IMG/VR virus record: IMGVR_UViG_3300046458_000154
Span: 1-53,146 of that record
Reading direction: 5' to 3' (one strand)
Origin: a virus
DNA length: 53,146 bases
Shown: one piece after another, positions 26,035-32,875 of the stretch
Position numbering within the stretch: position 1 is the stretch's first letter
Layout: each line of letters opens with the position of its first letter
Position numbers and translations under genes: made by a program
Notes under the pieces: generated by a model
Seen by the model: only the letters and a program-made list of their open reading frames with translations
What the model was told of the DNA's origin: nothing
The model's database searches: none

Positions 26035-27216
26035 ATGAGCACCGACTTTTTCCACGGCGTCACCGTCACGAACCTCGATACCGGTTCACGTCCTATCTCT
26101 CTGCCGTCTTCCTCGATCATCGGGCTGTGTGACGTATTCACACCGGGGCCGGGTGTCAAAAGCATACCGGCTGCCACCAGCAACGAGCTGAGGATGATCA
26201 CCCGCCTCGCCGAAGCGGTAGACGCCTGGGGCGCCGATGCCCCAATCACCCAAGCATGTGAAGCGGTGTTTCAACGTGCCTCTGCGGTCATCATCGGGTG
26301 CGGGGTAGCCAAGGTTGCCGATGCTGCCGCACAAATCTCCGCCATTATCGGCGGGGTGCTCGCCAGCGGTCAGCGCACCGGCCTGCAGGCGCTGCTCGAT
26401 GGCAAAAGCAGGTTCAACGCCCAGCCACGCTTGCTGATCGCGCCGCAGCATTCAGCCACCCAGGCGGTCGCCACGGCCATGGATGGGTTGGCAGGCAAGC
26501 TGCGCGCGATAGCCATTGTTGACGGCCCGAACACCACGGATGAGGCCGCGCTGGAATATGCCGAAAATTTCGGCAGCAAGCGCATCTTCATGGTCGATCC
26601 GGGCGTGCAGTTCTGGGACACACGCGCTAACGCCGCAGTGGACGCGCCGGCTTCGGCATGGACGGCCGGCCTGTTTGCGTGGACCGACGCCCAGTATGGA
26701 TTCTGGGCCTCGCCGTCGAACAAAGAGTTTGTCGGCATCACCGGCACCGGTCGCCCCATCGAGTTTCTCGACGGCGACACCACCTGCCGCGCCAACCTGC
26801 TGAATGCCGCGAACATCACCACCATCATTCGCGACGATGGCTATCGCTTGTGGGGTAATCGCACCCGCTCAAGCGACCCCAAATGGTCGTTTGTGACCCG
26901 GGTCCGGACGATGGACATGGTCATGGACGCGATCCTTTACGCGCACAAATGGGCGGTAGACCGATCCATCACCAAGACCTATGTCAAAGACGTCACCGAA
27001 GGTCTGCAGAACTTCATGCGTGACCTCAAGAACCTGGGCGCGGTGATCAACTTCGAGGTGTTTGCCGACCCGGACCGCAACACTGCCAGCCAGCTGTCGG
27101 AGGGCAAGGTGTACTGGCGCATCCGCTTCACCGACGTGCCGCCTGCTGAAAACCCGAATTTTCTGGTGGAAGTCACGGACCAGTGGATCACCGAAGTTCT
27201 CGATAACGCCGCATAA
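26035..27216 (+). CDS. Contractile tail sheath protein
   Basis: The 393-aa protein is a P2 gpFI-type sheath subunit with HGVTVTNLDTGSRPISLPSS at the N terminus, RANLLNAANITTIIRDDGYR and LWGNRTRSSDPKW in the middle and INFEVFADPDRNTASQLSEG near the end. Its presence establishes a contractile (myovirus) tail. Confidence 0.93.
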   Translation: MSTDFFHGVTVTNLDTGSRPISLPSSSIIGLCDVFTPGPGVKSIPAATSNELRMITRLAEAVDAWGADAPITQACEAVFQRASAVIIGCGVAKVADAAAQISAIIGGVLASGQRTGLQALLDGKSRFNAQPRLLIAPQHSATQAVATAMDGLAGKLRAIAIVDGPNTTDEAALEYAENFGSKRIFMVDPGVQFWDTRANAAVDAPASAWTAGLFAWTDAQYGFWASPSNKEFVGITGTGRPIEFLDGDTTCRANLLNAANITTIIRDDGYRLWGNRTRSSDPKWSFVTRVRTMDMVMDAILYAHKWAVDRSITKTYVKDVTEGLQNFMRDLKNLGAVINFEVFADPDRNTASQLSEGKVYWRIRFTDVPPAENPNFLVEVTDQWITEVLDNAA

Positions 27217-27227
27217 GGGGCTGCTCA

Positions 27228-27731
27228 ATGATTCCTCAAACGCTTTTCAACATGAACATGTTCGTCGACGGCATCAGTCTGAGCGGCGACACCACCGAGC
27301 TGACCCTGCCCAAACTTACGGTCAAGACCGAAGCGCACCGTGCCGGTGGTATGGATGCCGAAATCGATATGGACATGGGCCTGGAGAAGCTCGATGCGTC
27401 CTTCTCCGGTACCGGCATCCGCAAGGAGGTCCTGAAATGGTTTGGCCTGGCGGATCAGAGCGCCTTCAACAGCAGCTTTCGGGGCTCTTTCAAGAGCCAG
27501 AAAGGCGAGGCCACAGGAGTGGTCGCCACGATTCGCGGCATGCTTCGGGAGGTCGATCCGGGAAGCTGGAAGGCCGGGGACAAAAACGAGTTCAAGTACG
27601 CCGTGAGCGTGAGCTACTACAAGCTCGAAGTGAATGGCGTGCTCGTCTACGAGATCGACCCCGTCAACATGGTCCGTGTCATCAATGGCGTTGACCAACT
27701 GCAGCAACACCGCACCAATCTGGGCTTGTAA
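27228..27731 (+). CDS. Major tail tube protein
   Basis: The 167-aa gpFII-type tube protein follows the sheath by 11 bp. It begins IPQTLFNMNMFVDGISLSGD and contains EVDPGSWKAGDKNEFKYAVS and VYEIDPVNMVRVINGVD. It forms the rigid inner tube through which DNA passes. Confidence 0.93.
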   Translation: MIPQTLFNMNMFVDGISLSGDTTELTLPKLTVKTEAHRAGGMDAEIDMDMGLEKLDASFSGTGIRKEVLKWFGLADQSAFNSSFRGSFKSQKGEATGVVATIRGMLREVDPGSWKAGDKNEFKYAVSVSYYKLEVNGVLVYEIDPVNMVRVINGVDQLQQHRTNLGL

Positions 27732-27740
27732 GGAGACCGC

Positions 27741-28064
27741 ATGACCACTCTGGATATCAACACCGACACCCTCAACGGTTTGCCGCGCTGGCTTGCCGTC
27801 ATGGACGGAGGCGTCACGATCACCCTGTCTACTCCCGCAACACTGAGTGGTGTCAAAGTCGAAAAGTTGACTTTGCGCACACCCACTGTCAGAGATTTGC
27901 GGACTTGCCAGAAGATGCACCCCAACGACTTGCTGGCCGTTGACGCGATGCTGTTCAGCAGCCTGGCGTCCATCACCGAAACCGAGCTGTTGAGCCTCTC
28001 GCTGAAGGACTACGAGCGCGTGAAGAGTGGTTATTTTCGCATGGTCGAAGAAGACGAACTTTAA
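27741..28064 (+). CDS. Tail assembly chaperone E (zero-frame product)
   Basis: A 107-aa protein in the position of P2 gpE, with LRTPTVRDLRTCQKMHPND and TETELLSLSLKDYERV. It ends GAA CTT TAA A. A second, family-like reading frame follows immediately in the +1 frame (28060-28176). Reading through would give about 144 aa, close to the P2 E+E' product (142 aa). The two products normally coat the tape measure protein during tail assembly. Confidence 0.85.
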   Translation: MTTLDINTDTLNGLPRWLAVMDGGVTITLSTPATLSGVKVEKLTLRTPTVRDLRTCQKMHPNDLLAVDAMLFSSLASITETELLSLSLKDYERVKSGYFRMVEEDEL

Positions 28065-28176
28065 ACCTGCGGTTTTGCGGCAATTGGCGAAACGACTGTC
28101 CCGGGAGTCCGGATTTACCCTGGACGAGATCGAGACCATGCCTTTTTTCGAAATGGTGTGGTGGCTCACGGACTGA
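28060..28176 (+). CDS. Tail assembly chaperone E' (frameshift extension)
   Basis: This +1-frame reading encodes KPAVLRQLAKRLSRESGF followed by TLDEIETMPFFEMVWWLTD, a typical extension of tail assembly chaperones. It has no good start of its own. The only candidates are TTG codons near 28075 without a clear ribosome site. A +1 slip of the CTT-decoding tRNA onto TTT, before the TAA stop, would fuse it to E. Confidence 0.7.
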   Translation, partial: FKPAVLRQLAKRLSRESGFTLDEIETMPFFEMVWWLTD

Positions 28177-28212
28177 GCCACTCACCCTGGACCGGGATGC
28201 AGGGGCAATCAC

Positions 28213-30744
28213 ATGGCAAAAGAGTTAGCGCTTGGGCTGGTGATCGGCGGCGCGGTCAACAAGTCAGTAGGCGCTGCGTTCAATCACGTTGAAGGGAGAG
28301 TCAAACGCCTGGAATCGACAGCGGCAAAAGCCCGCGTTCTTCAGTCGATGATCGGTGAGACCAAAAAGCTGCAGGACGAATGGCGCAAGGCCCATGCATC
28401 AGGGGCATCGGCGGCCGAAGGGTTAAGGCGCAAGCTCGACACCAACCTTCAGAGTCTGCGTCGACAGGGAGTTGAGGTCCACAACCTTGGCCGGGCTTAT
28501 GAGCAGATGGGGCGTAAGGCTCGTGCGGCGGATCTTCGCGCAACCGGGCACGCTCAGCTCAAACAGGGGGTCGTCGGCCTGCGCAATACGGCGGCCGCCA
28601 CAGCGGGGGCCGCTGCCACGACCATGATCGCCCCGAGCAAGGTCAGCGCGGACTATGGCGCGGTGGTAAGGGATATCGCGATCAAGGCCGGTATCGCCAA
28701 CACTACCGAAGAAAAGCGGATGTCGAACTCAATCATCGACACATCGCGCAGTACCGGCATGGCGCGAAACGATGTCGCCGACGTGGTCAACGCCTTGGTC
28801 GGCGCCGGCATGGAGTTAGAGCAAGCCATCCAGTACGCACCTGTGGCGTCGAAATTTGTGGTCGGGCAGGGCGCCGAAGCTACCGACACAGCGAGGATGA
28901 TCAACGCCTTGGGGCAGAACGCCAAGATAACGGACCCCCAGGAGATGCAAAAAGCGCTGGAGGCCATTGCCTTTCAAGGGCAGGCAGGCAGCTTTGAAGC
29001 CGCCGATATGGCCAAGTGGTTTCCGCAGTTGCTGGCCGGGATGGAGAAGCTAGGCATCAATGGCAACGATGCCGTATCGCAACTGGGCTCGATGCTGCAG
29101 GTGCAGATGAAAACCGCAGGTAGTTCGGACGAAGCCGCGAACAACCTGAAAAACTGGATGGAGAAAATCGGTTCCACCGACGTGGTCAAGTCTTACAAAG
29201 ACGCGGGGATCGACTATCAGGCCTCACTGAACACCGGCCTGCAGAAAGGCATGTCGACGCTGGAAGCCAGTTTCGCCCTGGCACAGAAATACGTCGAAGC
29301 CACCGACCCCAAGAAGGCCACAGAGATGTCGGAAGCCATGGCGAAGATCAGCAAAGAGGCCGACCCCGCCAAGGCCAAGAAGATGATGGCGTCCCTTGAG
29401 CAGGCGCTGCGTACCGGCGATCTGTTCGCAGACATGCAGGTGAAGGCCGCGCTGACCGCCTACACGCAGAATAAGGATCTGTATCAGCAACTTAAAAAGG
29501 ATTCGGCTAACGCCTCGGGCATCCTCGACAAGAACCTGGCCGAACGGCGGGAAACTTCGGCCCAGAAATGGAGTGAAGCCGGGCAGGCCATGAACGATGC
29601 CCTGCGCAGCGCTGGGGATGCCATGCGCCCGCTGACAGACAAGCTGGCCGGTGGCGTTTCCGACATCGGCAAAAGCCTGTCCAGCCTCAGCGATAGCACG
29701 CCTAACCTGGTCACGGGTTTGCTGAGCGTTGGCGCGGCCGTCGCCACCATCACAGCGGCGTACAGTGGTCTCAAGATCGCCAAAGGCCTGATGAACATTG
29801 GTCGCGGCACGCTGATGGGCAATCCCAACCTCGTGCAGAAGGTCCACGTCGTCAACGGGCTGGGCGGTGCGGGTGGCCTGGACGTGAATGGCGATGGCGG
29901 CAAAAAGGCCGGCCGTCGCGCGAAACGGCGGGGCGGGTTTTGGCGACGGCGCGGCGCGGTCGGCGGGCCAGTAGCGTTGGAACCGGTCAGCAAGCCGCGC
30001 ATGCGCGTTTACCCCGGCGGCACGGCTGTCGAGGCACCCAAATCCCTAAGCGGCTGGAAGCCCCCGACGGAAGTGCCGAAAACGTCGACAATACCCGCCT
30101 CATCGCTGGTCGCGGCCTCCAACAAAGTGGGTGGCGCGCTCAGCGTCGTGCGCTCGGTAGGCAAGGCGAATGTGGCCGGTGCGCTGCTCGATGCCGCGCT
30201 CAGCGCCAAGGAGGTTTACGACACTGCTGAAACGCGGGACGAAAAAGCCCAGGGCTACGGCTCTGTAGCGGGTACGGCAACGGGCGCCCTTGCCGGTGCT
30301 GCTGCCGGCGCGGCCATCGGTTCGGTGGTACCCGTTATCGGCACGGCCATCGGCGGATTGATTGGCGCCTGGTTGGGTTCTCAGGGTGGCGGCAAGCTGG
30401 GTGGCGTTGTAGGCAAAGCGCTGTTTGGCGGGCCAGATGAACCAGCATCCGCAACTGCCAAGTCTGCACCCGACGAGGTGGCCAGGTCATTGCGCGAAGC
30501 AGACACAAAGCCTCAGGCCGCAATGCTCGCTGAAGCCGCCAAGGCTGTACCGGGCCCCAAGCCCGAACAAGCCAAAGTCGACCAGAAAATCACGCTGTCG
30601 CCTTCGTTCAGCATCATCGTGCAAGGAGACGCCAAGGATCCTCGTGAGCTGCTGAATCAGATGATGCCCGAGATCGAACGGCGCCTGTCCGATCTGTCGC
30701 AACAGGTCGCGCGCCGCGACATGACCGACGCGCCAGTGTTTTAA
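28213..30744 (+). CDS. Tail tape measure protein
   Basis: The 843-aa protein sets tail length. It has a helical N-terminal third (NHVEGRVKRLESTAAKAR), a central TP901-type core (MARNDVADVVNALVGAGMEL, MQVQMK region), a hydrophobic/Gly-Ala-rich stretch near residues 690-735 (AGAAAGAAIGSVVPVIGTAI) and a basic linker near 575 (KKAGRRAKRRGGFWRRRG). It is large and directly follows E/E', as in P2. Confidence 0.9.
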   Translation: MAKELALGLVIGGAVNKSVGAAFNHVEGRVKRLESTAAKARVLQSMIGETKKLQDEWRKAHASGASAAEGLRRKLDTNLQSLRRQGVEVHNLGRAYEQMGRKARAADLRATGHAQLKQGVVGLRNTAAATAGAAATTMIAPSKVSADYGAVVRDIAIKAGIANTTEEKRMSNSIIDTSRSTGMARNDVADVVNALVGAGMELEQAIQYAPVASKFVVGQGAEATDTARMINALGQNAKITDPQEMQKALEAIAFQGQAGSFEAADMAKWFPQLLAGMEKLGINGNDAVSQLGSMLQVQMKTAGSSDEAANNLKNWMEKIGSTDVVKSYKDAGIDYQASLNTGLQKGMSTLEASFALAQKYVEATDPKKATEMSEAMAKISKEADPAKAKKMMASLEQALRTGDLFADMQVKAALTAYTQNKDLYQQLKKDSANASGILDKNLAERRETSAQKWSEAGQAMNDALRSAGDAMRPLTDKLAGGVSDIGKSLSSLSDSTPNLVTGLLSVGAAVATITAAYSGLKIAKGLMNIGRGTLMGNPNLVQKVHVVNGLGGAGGLDVNGDGGKKAGRRAKRRGGFWRRRGAVGGPVALEPVSKPRMRVYPGGTAVEAPKSLSGWKPPTEVPKTSTIPASSLVAASNKVGGALSVVRSVGKANVAGALLDAALSAKEVYDTAETRDEKAQGYGSVAGTATGALAGAAAGAAIGSVVPVIGTAIGGLIGAWLGSQGGGKLGGVVGKALFGGPDEPASATAKSAPDEVARSLREADTKPQAAMLAEAAKAVPGPKPEQAKVDQKITLSPSFSIIVQGDAKDPRELLNQMMPEIERRLSDLSQQVARRDMTDAPVF

Positions 30745-30753
30745 GGAGGAACC

Positions 30754-31599
30754 ATGGCCTACATGGAAAACATGCAATCCGGGCTCAAATACCTGGTGCA
30801 GGCAGGCGAAGCAGGGCGCAAGGATCTGGACGGTATGCTGGGCCCCATGAACGGCGCCATCGGCTCGATCATGGGCGCGGCCGATGAGCTGGAGAGTGTT
30901 CCGTTCGTGGGGCCGGTGATCGGCGCCAAGCTGCAGCGCATCACCGGCGCGATCGGTGTGGCTCAAGCCAAGGTCGGCCGGATCGTCTCGGCCTACGGCA
31001 CCGCCACTCGGGTCGCATCGGAGGTTCAGCGAAGGGTCGAGGTGCTGGGCGAGCAGGCCGCCCGCGCGAAGTCGGCGGTCAACAGCCTGGCCGCAAAGAT
31101 CAGCCCTGGCTCCGAACCGATTTTCGCGACCACCGCCATGGCGCCCAACGCCACGCCGGCGCCCGAAGCCGTGAAGCCGTTCCCGCACCTTCTGATCATG
31201 CAGCCGCTGGCGGCCAGTGCCGTGCCGTATTTCTTCAACCTCGACACCGCCGCATTCGACGAACTGAATCGCTCCACGGCATTCCGCTGGGCGGCTCAGG
31301 AACGTCTCACGCGGCGTCCTGCACAACAGGCGGTTGGCATGGGCGAAGACAAGATCACCCTCAAGGGCGCGATCTTTCCCGCCTTCAAGGGTGGGCTCAA
31401 GCAGCTCAACACCCTGCGCAGCATCGGCAAGCGCCTGCAGCCGCTGATGCTGACCACGGGCTACGGCGAAGTGCTGGGCAACTGGTGCCTCACCAGCGTG
31501 AACGAAGAACAGACCGCGCTCCTTCCGGGCGCAATTCCGCGCAAGCAAGGCTTTACCCTGGAGTTTGTACGCTATGGCGATGACCTGCAGAACGTCTGA
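30754..31599 (+). CDS. Tail protein U
   Basis: A 281-aa protein with an N-terminal helical extension (about 1-125) and a C-terminal P2 gpU domain (about 145-281, with LLTTGYGEVLGNWCLTSV-like sequence and KQGFTLEFVRYGDD). P2 gpU is about 160 aa, so this is an extended version. It lies between the tape measure and X genes. Confidence 0.82.
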   Translation: MAYMENMQSGLKYLVQAGEAGRKDLDGMLGPMNGAIGSIMGAADELESVPFVGPVIGAKLQRITGAIGVAQAKVGRIVSAYGTATRVASEVQRRVEVLGEQAARAKSAVNSLAAKISPGSEPIFATTAMAPNATPAPEAVKPFPHLLIMQPLAASAVPYFFNLDTAAFDELNRSTAFRWAAQERLTRRPAQQAVGMGEDKITLKGAIFPAFKGGLKQLNTLRSIGKRLQPLMLTTGYGEVLGNWCLTSVNEEQTALLPGAIPRKQGFTLEFVRYGDDLQNV

Positions 31600-31780
31600 T
31601 GGCGACGTGCTCGACACCATTTGTCAGCACCATTACGGTCACCTGATTGGCACCGTCGAAGCCGTGCTGGATGCCAATCAGGGCCTGGCCGATGAGCCCC
31701 AGCCGTTTCGCGCAGGGGTATTGATCCGGCTGCCTGACATACCGTCTGCAGTCGACGAGAACGTCACACTCTGGGACTGA
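31574..31780 (+). CDS. Tail protein X (LysM-like)
   Basis: A 68-aa gpX-type protein with TSDGDVLDTICQHHYGH, VEAVLDANQGLAD and PFRAGVLIRLPDI, the LysM-like pattern of baseplate hub proteins. It overlaps gpU by 26 bp. GGAG lies 10 nt before the ATG at 31574. The ATG at 31580 is also possible. Confidence 0.82.
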   Translation: MAMTCRTSDGDVLDTICQHHYGHLIGTVEAVLDANQGLADEPQPFRAGVLIRLPDIPSAVDENVTLWD

Positions 31781-31804
31781 CACCCACGCTGACCTTTTCC
31801 ACCC

Positions 31805-31826
31805 AACCCCGCACTGGCGGGGTTTT
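31805..31826 (+). terminator. Terminator-like hairpin between X and D
   Basis: AACCCCGC (31805-31812), loop ACTG, GCGGGGTT (31817-31824), then TT and a T-rich stretch. The gene D ATG follows at 31844. Confidence 0.65.
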
Positions 31827-31843
31827 CATTTTGAGGGCCGTTT

Positions 31844-32875
31844 ATGAAACCGGCATACAGGATTGTCGCCAACGGCACGGACATAACCGCTGTTATCAAC
31901 GACCGTATGCTGATGATCCGCACAATAGACAAGCCGGGGGCCAGCTCCGACGACTTCGAACTGCGTATTGATGACCGCGATGGCGTCGTCACGCTCCCCA
32001 AGCGTGGGGCGAGGATGGAGGTCTATCTGGGCTACGAAGGTGAAAAGCTCGCTTTGATCGGCAAATACACGGTCGATGAAATCGAGGTTTCAGGCCCGCC
32101 GGACACCATCGTCATTCGCAGCAAGTCCAGCGACACGCGCAGCAGTGCCAAGACCACCCGCAGCGGCAGTTGGGAGGGCGTCAGCCTTGCCAGCATCGTC
32201 GCCGACATCGCCGCGCGTAATGGCTGGCAACCCCAATGCAGCGTGCAACCGCTAATTGAACGGGCCGACCAACTCAACGAGTCCGACCTGAGCTTCATCA
32301 CCCGGCTCGCCAAACAGTACGACTGCACCGCCAAAGTGGCAGGCGGCAAACTCATCGTCCTGCCGCGCCAGGGTGGCGTCAGCGCCAAAGGGAGCAAGTT
32401 TCCCGTGATCGGCATCAAACGCAGCGACGTCAGTGGCTGGAAATTTCGCCTGGGTGACGACAACGTCAAGAAAGCGGTTAGGGCGGCTTACGCCGACAAA
32501 AACGGCCAGCTCGTCACCGTCCAGCTAGACAACGAGAGCACCGAGGGACTGCCGCCCATCCACACCGACCGCCATATCCACGCGAACAAAGGAGCAGCCG
32601 AAGCCGCCGCCAAGGCCCGTCTGGCCGGATTCAATCGCTCGACGGCGGGTGTTCGTCTGGACATGCCAGGCAGGACAGACCTGTTCGCCGAACGTGAGAT
32701 CGATGCCCAGGGCTTCAAGGTCGGTCTCGACGGCAACTACTTGGTCGACACAGTGGAACAGGTCTTTACCCAGGCCGGCTGGTCTACAACGGTTGAATGC
32801 AACGGCGGCAAGAAAGGGAAGGCCAGCGCTAAGGGCAAGAAAGCCCAAAAGCCTGTGAAAGTCGTGCAGTTATAA
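31844..32875 (+). CDS. Tail protein D (baseplate hub)
   Basis: The 343-aa protein matches P2 gpD: YRIVANGTDITAVINDRML at the start, GARMEVYLGYEGEKLALIGK, and SDLSFITRLAKQYDCTAKVA in the middle. It forms the hub around the spike. The tail is Lys-rich (KGKASAKGKKAQKPVKV). Confidence 0.88.
   Translation: MKPAYRIVANGTDITAVINDRMLMIRTIDKPGASSDDFELRIDDRDGVVTLPKRGARMEVYLGYEGEKLALIGKYTVDEIEVSGPPDTIVIRSKSSDTRSSAKTTRSGSWEGVSLASIVADIAARNGWQPQCSVQPLIERADQLNESDLSFITRLAKQYDCTAKVAGGKLIVLPRQGGVSAKGSKFPVIGIKRSDVSGWKFRLGDDNVKKAVRAAYADKNGQLVTVQLDNESTEGLPPIHTDRHIHANKGAAEAAAKARLAGFNRSTAGVRLDMPGRTDLFAEREIDAQGFKVGLDGNYLVDTVEQVFTQAGWSTTVECNGGKKGKASAKGKKAQKPVKVVQL

Follow-up and report, generated by a model that had tools for sequence, protein, structure and literature searches.

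The tail assembly chaperone of phage P2 is described in two forms, E with 91 amino acids and E+E′ with 142 amino acids (PMC3091744). The extension is reached by −1 slipping in P2, and phage Mu uses −2. For other tails, forward shifts have been proposed; that of the haloarchaeal HSTV-2 tail chaperone is regarded as 'very likely +1' (PMC5009743), and SEA-PHAGES annotations include forward tail-chaperone shifts (PMC10885494). A +1 shift at the motif UUU_CGN was shown by mass spectrometry in influenza virus (PMC3498833) and inferred in amalgaviruses (PMC5052127); the CUU-stop cases listed in RECODE are all prfB (PMC10885494). At the tail locus described here, E-E′ would very probably be made by a +1 slip at UUU_CGC (28035-28040), with the 107-amino acid E as the main product and a 144-amino acid fusion as the minor one, as judged from comparison of related genes.

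The window, i.e., the whole analyzed stretch of 53,146 nucleotides of viral DNA from an IMG/VR record, has the appearance of a hybrid phage, combining a lambda-like major capsid protein E (PF03864, 19303-20298) with a P2-like contractile tail (26035-32875). In the tail region, all on the forward strand, the tail sheath gene FI (26035-27216; Pfam PF04984/PF17482) is followed by the tail tube gene FII (27228-27731; Pfam PF04985, E=9.9e-60), the chaperone gene E (27741-28064), and the tape-measure gene T (28213-30744; Pfam PF10145, E=4e-23; PHROG 794; TIGR01760). Gene E encodes 107 amino acids in the zero frame, belongs to the chaperone family Phage_TAC_7 (PF10109, E=8.7e-16; PHROG 166, tail protein), and is located between the tube gene and the tape-measure gene, as in P2. 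Its 3′ end reads GTC GAA GAA GAC GAA CTT TAA A, with CTT at 28059-28061 and TAA at 28062-28064. The reading frame of E′, +1 relative to E, has no stop between 28024 and the TGA at 28174-28176 and includes ...MPFFEMVWWLTD; the extension proper, counted from the proposed slip, covers 45 codons (28039-28176, TGA included). An earlier sequence-only reading had recognized a tail chaperone E/E′ with a +1 shift at this place. The family match and the gene order bear out the chaperone, the layout of E and E′ is confirmed from the sequence, and the fused length of 144 amino acids is indeed close to the 142 of P2. With E′ or the E-E′ fusion as query, no match for the E′ part was obtained in Pfam, NCBIfam or among solved structures, and a nucleotide search of phage records gave no match.

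For comparison, 111 non-identical E genes of one clade were compiled, the window itself counted in, from ten viral contigs, further viral contigs, Pseudomonas genome loci, and 399 sampled genomes of this genus, E homologues being present in 116 of them. The named hosts of the close relatives are all Pseudomonas. A non-redundant set consists of 67 representatives with less than 85% nucleotide identity. The E frame is continued in the +1 frame in all 111 genes, as the earlier reading had it for the window, and the extension measures 45 codons from the proposed slip in 105 of them. Since E′ is conserved in every relative of the clade examined, its reading is more than chance. Natural in-frame E-E′ fusions were not seen among the loci read.

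The conserved signal of this clade is found upstream of the E stop. The Phe codon of a GY-F-R stretch, nine codons before the stop in the window, is TTT in 111/111 genes, with a C next to it in 110 of them and a T in the remaining gene. This makes 107 genes with TTT_CGN, among them the window with TTT CGC, three with TTT_CTG, and one with TTT_TGC, the last resulting from an Arg-to-Cys change that leaves a slippery UUU_U. Among the 67 representatives, TTT is present in 64/64, and the other three, in which the Phe is shifted by one column, also have TTT_C. Against a family background of 37% TTT this corresponds to a binomial p=1e-28 for the representatives, a value without phylogenetic correction that overstates independence since the representatives are related. 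The count of changes on a tree, made from the remainder of gene E, is the safer figure: the third base of the slip Phe codon does not change in 108 sequences, whereas Phe72 of E has 16 changes and further codons taken for comparison have 14 to 25. As a control, the neighboring gene FII has a conserved Phe with Arg CGN after it, and this Phe is TTT in only 20/105 cases.

The surroundings of this codon are constrained as well. Between TTT_C and the E stop, a +1-frame stop is found in none of the 111 genes, while 56 of them have one within 12 codons upstream of TTT_C. In the window, that stop is the TGA at 28021-28023, five codons upstream of the slip Phe codon, so the shift must take place downstream of it. 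The Arg codon after the slip Phe is CGC or CGT in 63/63 representatives, with CGA occurring in the tandem form L190 and in L156. The next Leu codon is YTG in 61/61 versus a background of 73% (p=3e-9, subject to the same relatedness of the representatives), which keeps a +1-frame Trp directly after the site. The preceding Tyr codon (28032-28034 in the window) is TAT in 48/67 representatives versus a background of 24%, TAC being preferred elsewhere in E and TAC_TTT being found in 30/111 relatives. The excess of TAT, though it lies 5′ of the shift, would fit an effect of weak E-site pairing and is suggestive only; in E. coli prfB, a UAU codon stands in the E site. The probable slip site of the window is thus TAT_TTT_CGC at 28032-28040, whose invariant TTT_C at 28035-28038 lies just outside the interval 28040-28176 to which the sequence-only reading had assigned the frameshift.

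Site, frame and E′ protein are conserved; what we infer is that the slip happens in vivo, how efficient it is, and what the two products do. Most ribosomes would end at the TAA of E and release the 107-amino acid chaperone. In a minority, tRNA-Phe in the P site would slip from UUU (28035-28037) to UUC (28036-28038), while the E site holds a Tyr codon and Arg CGC waits in the A site. Re-pairing would be favored since UUC is a better match than UUU for the anticodon GAA of the only tRNA-Phe. The next codons would be read as GCA TGG, yielding a 144-amino acid fusion ...KSGYF|AWSKKTNFKPAVLRQLAKRLSRESGFTLDEIETMPFFEMVWWLTD, the computed product reading ...GYF-AWSKKTNFKPAV... at the junction. By analogy with G/GT of lambda and E/E+E′ of P2, coating of the tape measure would fall to the E part, and the recruitment of tube subunits to E′.

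Searches for a stimulator of the slip gave none. The tetranucleotide alone cannot suffice, since the head and tail genes that were counted contain 14 in-frame copies of UUU_C, including the one in E, and gene D has a UUU_CGC as well. As CGC is common here, starvation at the A site does not suggest itself as a trigger. There is no excess of Shine-Dalgarno-like pairing at the site, with a mean of −3.93 versus −3.92 kcal/mol in synonymous controls. RNA structure adjoining the site is equally lacking (z +0.5 for 6-56 nucleotides downstream), and RNAalifold gave no consensus structure for all 67 representatives; P2 and its Burkholderia relatives are likewise without downstream structure (PMC3091744). 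Farther into E′, in the equivalent of 28066-28176, the relatives show a structure mildly more stable than synonymous shuffles (z −1.0 to −1.4).

The earlier reading had placed the slip at the end of E, on CTT_TAA (28059-28064), where a peptidyl tRNA on CUU would re-pair with UUU while the stop is slowly decoded, in the way of release factor 2. CUU_U does allow re-pairing, the principle is proven in prfB, and NTT precedes the stop in 90/111 genes (CTT, GTT, ATT or TTT, i.e., Leu, Val, Ile or Phe, together with TGA, TAA or TAG). CTT itself, as in the window, is found in 30/67 representatives. Alignment of the homologues around the stop, which that reading had proposed as a check, shows the stop-adjacent NTT to be variable and the conserved signal to lie upstream, at TTT_C. 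NTT-stop is missing in 21/111 relatives, with TTT_C kept in 110 genes of the clade and UUU_U in one. Several E genes end with CTG TAA (L058, L084, L105, L108, L136 and likewise L203) or GTG TAA (L120, L123, L129, L130), others with GAT TAA (L006), GAA TAA (L128, L133), GAG TAA (L138) or AGC TGA (L025), and in L016, L059, L060, L065, L092, L121 and L139 E runs on beyond the old stop point. In relatives with a displaced E stop (L006, L128, L059, L065, L025), a Phe near the former stop position persists in E′, encoded as TTC. This retained Phe would be missing from the fusion if the shift took place at the stop, which argues for entry into E′ upstream of the stop. The NTT pattern is itself explained by this conserved E′ Phe codon, which in the +1 frame overlaps the T of the stop. 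The subclades with CTG TAA and GTG TAA have Cys in place of the E′ Phe and argue, as a natural experiment, against the codon next to the stop as the slip site. Moreover, GTT and ATT variants would be mismatched after the slip, the window context is TAA A and not UGA C, and no Shine-Dalgarno-like element stands out upstream of CTT_TAA, where the anti-Shine-Dalgarno pairing profile stays near its average. Since, in addition, a slip at the stop leaves the invariant TTT_C, the YTG constraint and the lack of +1 stops unexplained, it is considered improbable.

Still less probable is that E′ would be a separate, unfused small protein with its own start near the 3′ end of E, either internal or by translational coupling. 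A few relatives (L006, L025, L059) do have an E′-frame ATG near the E stop, and the window has a GTG at 28027 in its E′ frame. The ATGs stem, however, from GAT GAA-type codon pairs in E and look incidental, and many relatives have neither an ATG there nor an evident ribosome-binding site. It also speaks against separate initiation that the E′ frame stays open up to TTT_C and that its length from there is as constant as noted above. A −2 slip as in phage Mu, which would reach the same frame as +1, or transcriptional slippage can hardly be expected, since in the 30 relatives with TAC_TTT tRNA-Phe cannot re-pair two bases back and a T run of only 3 to 4 bases is too short for the usual cases of the latter.

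A paralogue control for the slip Phe is offered by the many Pseudomonas E proteins of about 200 amino acids that contain two tandem TAC_7 domains (L144, L145, L155, L182-L197, L200). Their first domain is without the slip Phe (AYSHLVP and similar), while the second, which adjoins E′, keeps TAT or TAC followed by TTT CGN. From this contrast between the two domains, the slip Phe seems to serve recoding rather than the fold.

Outside the clade, the direction of slipping is different. E′ occupies the −1 frame in distant relatives such as Foxunavirus, Jilinvirus and Persinger, whose sites read T_TTT or T_TTC, in many of them with the P2-like form T_TTT_TTN. In an alignment of the fused proteins, the slip Phe of the −1 relatives, which stands in T_TTT_TTN or T_TTT/TTC_A, falls into the same or an adjacent column as that of the +1 clade. 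The −1 slip on T_TTT at the equivalent Phe in P2 and in the distant relatives implies that the direction has flipped. The +1 sequences form one clade, with the R-pyocin-type L016 and the divergent L156 (TCC_TTT_CGA) included. One further locus, L178 on contig G1270:C235, has TTT_TTT_CGT with E′ in the +1 frame and stands beside the −1 relative L179; it may represent a separate switch of direction, seen at a single locus near a contig end. The distant relative L176 has GGT_TTT_CGC, but its E′ is in the −1 frame, so UUU_CGC alone does not fix the direction. Altogether, we lean towards regarding the Phe codon as an ancestral pivot, where a T before and a T or A after it would give −1 and a C after it +1. 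The Pseudomonas tails and tailocins would then have flipped as a clade, L178 perhaps independently, and the motif would have converged with that of influenza virus and the amalgaviruses. One family would thereby switch its slip direction at one codon.

The site is not confined to one kind of particle. It is found in prophages with capsid genes (the window and L206), in a recA-flanked tailocin-type locus (L205), and in phage regions of the plasmid records NZ_CP062157 and NZ_CP085886 (L203, L204), where E′ is unannotated and a gap is left between E and the tape-measure gene. In the biocontrol strain P. protegens CHA0, R-tailocin genes are located between mutS and cinA/recA (PMC7815802). In the record of L016 no capsid gene is annotated, and the annotation of its terminal genes is consistent with trp genes. 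The 18.5-kb P. aeruginosa record OQ658366 (L202) is named a complete phage; it looks like an R-pyocin cluster, without an annotated capsid gene and with trp-consistent genes at one end. R-pyocin-type and tailocin clusters also have E′, which should be needed there for building the particle.

Compared with the known systems, the E/E′ pair of the window resembles E/E+E′ of P2 in its place between the tube and tape-measure genes, in its chaperone role, and in the slip at a Phe codon, which in P2 lies about seven codons before the E stop. It differs in direction, since P2 slips −1 at T_TTT_TTG, whereas E′ of the window is in the +1 frame with a C after TTT; together with the TAC_TTT variants, this upholds the earlier view of a solution distinct from both P2 and Mu. 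With prfB (CUU_UGA_C) it shares a bacterial +1 shift and a U-rich P-site codon. However, prfB depends on its stop codon together with a Shine-Dalgarno element upstream, whereas the shift of the window clade would be independent of the stop. Access to a chaperone extension by +1 was proposed earlier for HSTV-2 and in SEA-PHAGES annotations, but these concern other phage groups, and UUU_CGN at their sites was not met with in the literature examined. The literature search, which mostly did not extend to subscription papers, gave no report of UUU_CGN from Pseudomonas or from any tail chaperone; the motif at a tail chaperone is apparently new. The closest mechanistic parallel is not CUU_UGA of prfB, to which the sequence-only reading had likened the site, but UUU_CGN of influenza A PA-X (UCC_UUU_CGU) and of plant amalgaviruses, with a zero-frame UUU followed by CGN, reading in the +1 frame, and UUU to UUC re-pairing (PMC3498833, PMC5052127). 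The +1 motif, discussed so far for eukaryotic viruses, is here fixed in bacteria, where it offers a system in which tRNA-Phe, the codon for arginine and influences of the E site can be varied freely. The window clade is set apart by its E-site Tyr codon and by CGC or CGT as the A-site Arg codon in the non-redundant set, and PA-X and the amalgavirus proteins are made from eukaryotic RNA viruses on 80S ribosomes, whereas the site of the window belongs to a bacterial tail gene. The pivot reading and the convergence on UUU_CGN would point to a property of the ribosome that is common to 70S and 80S.
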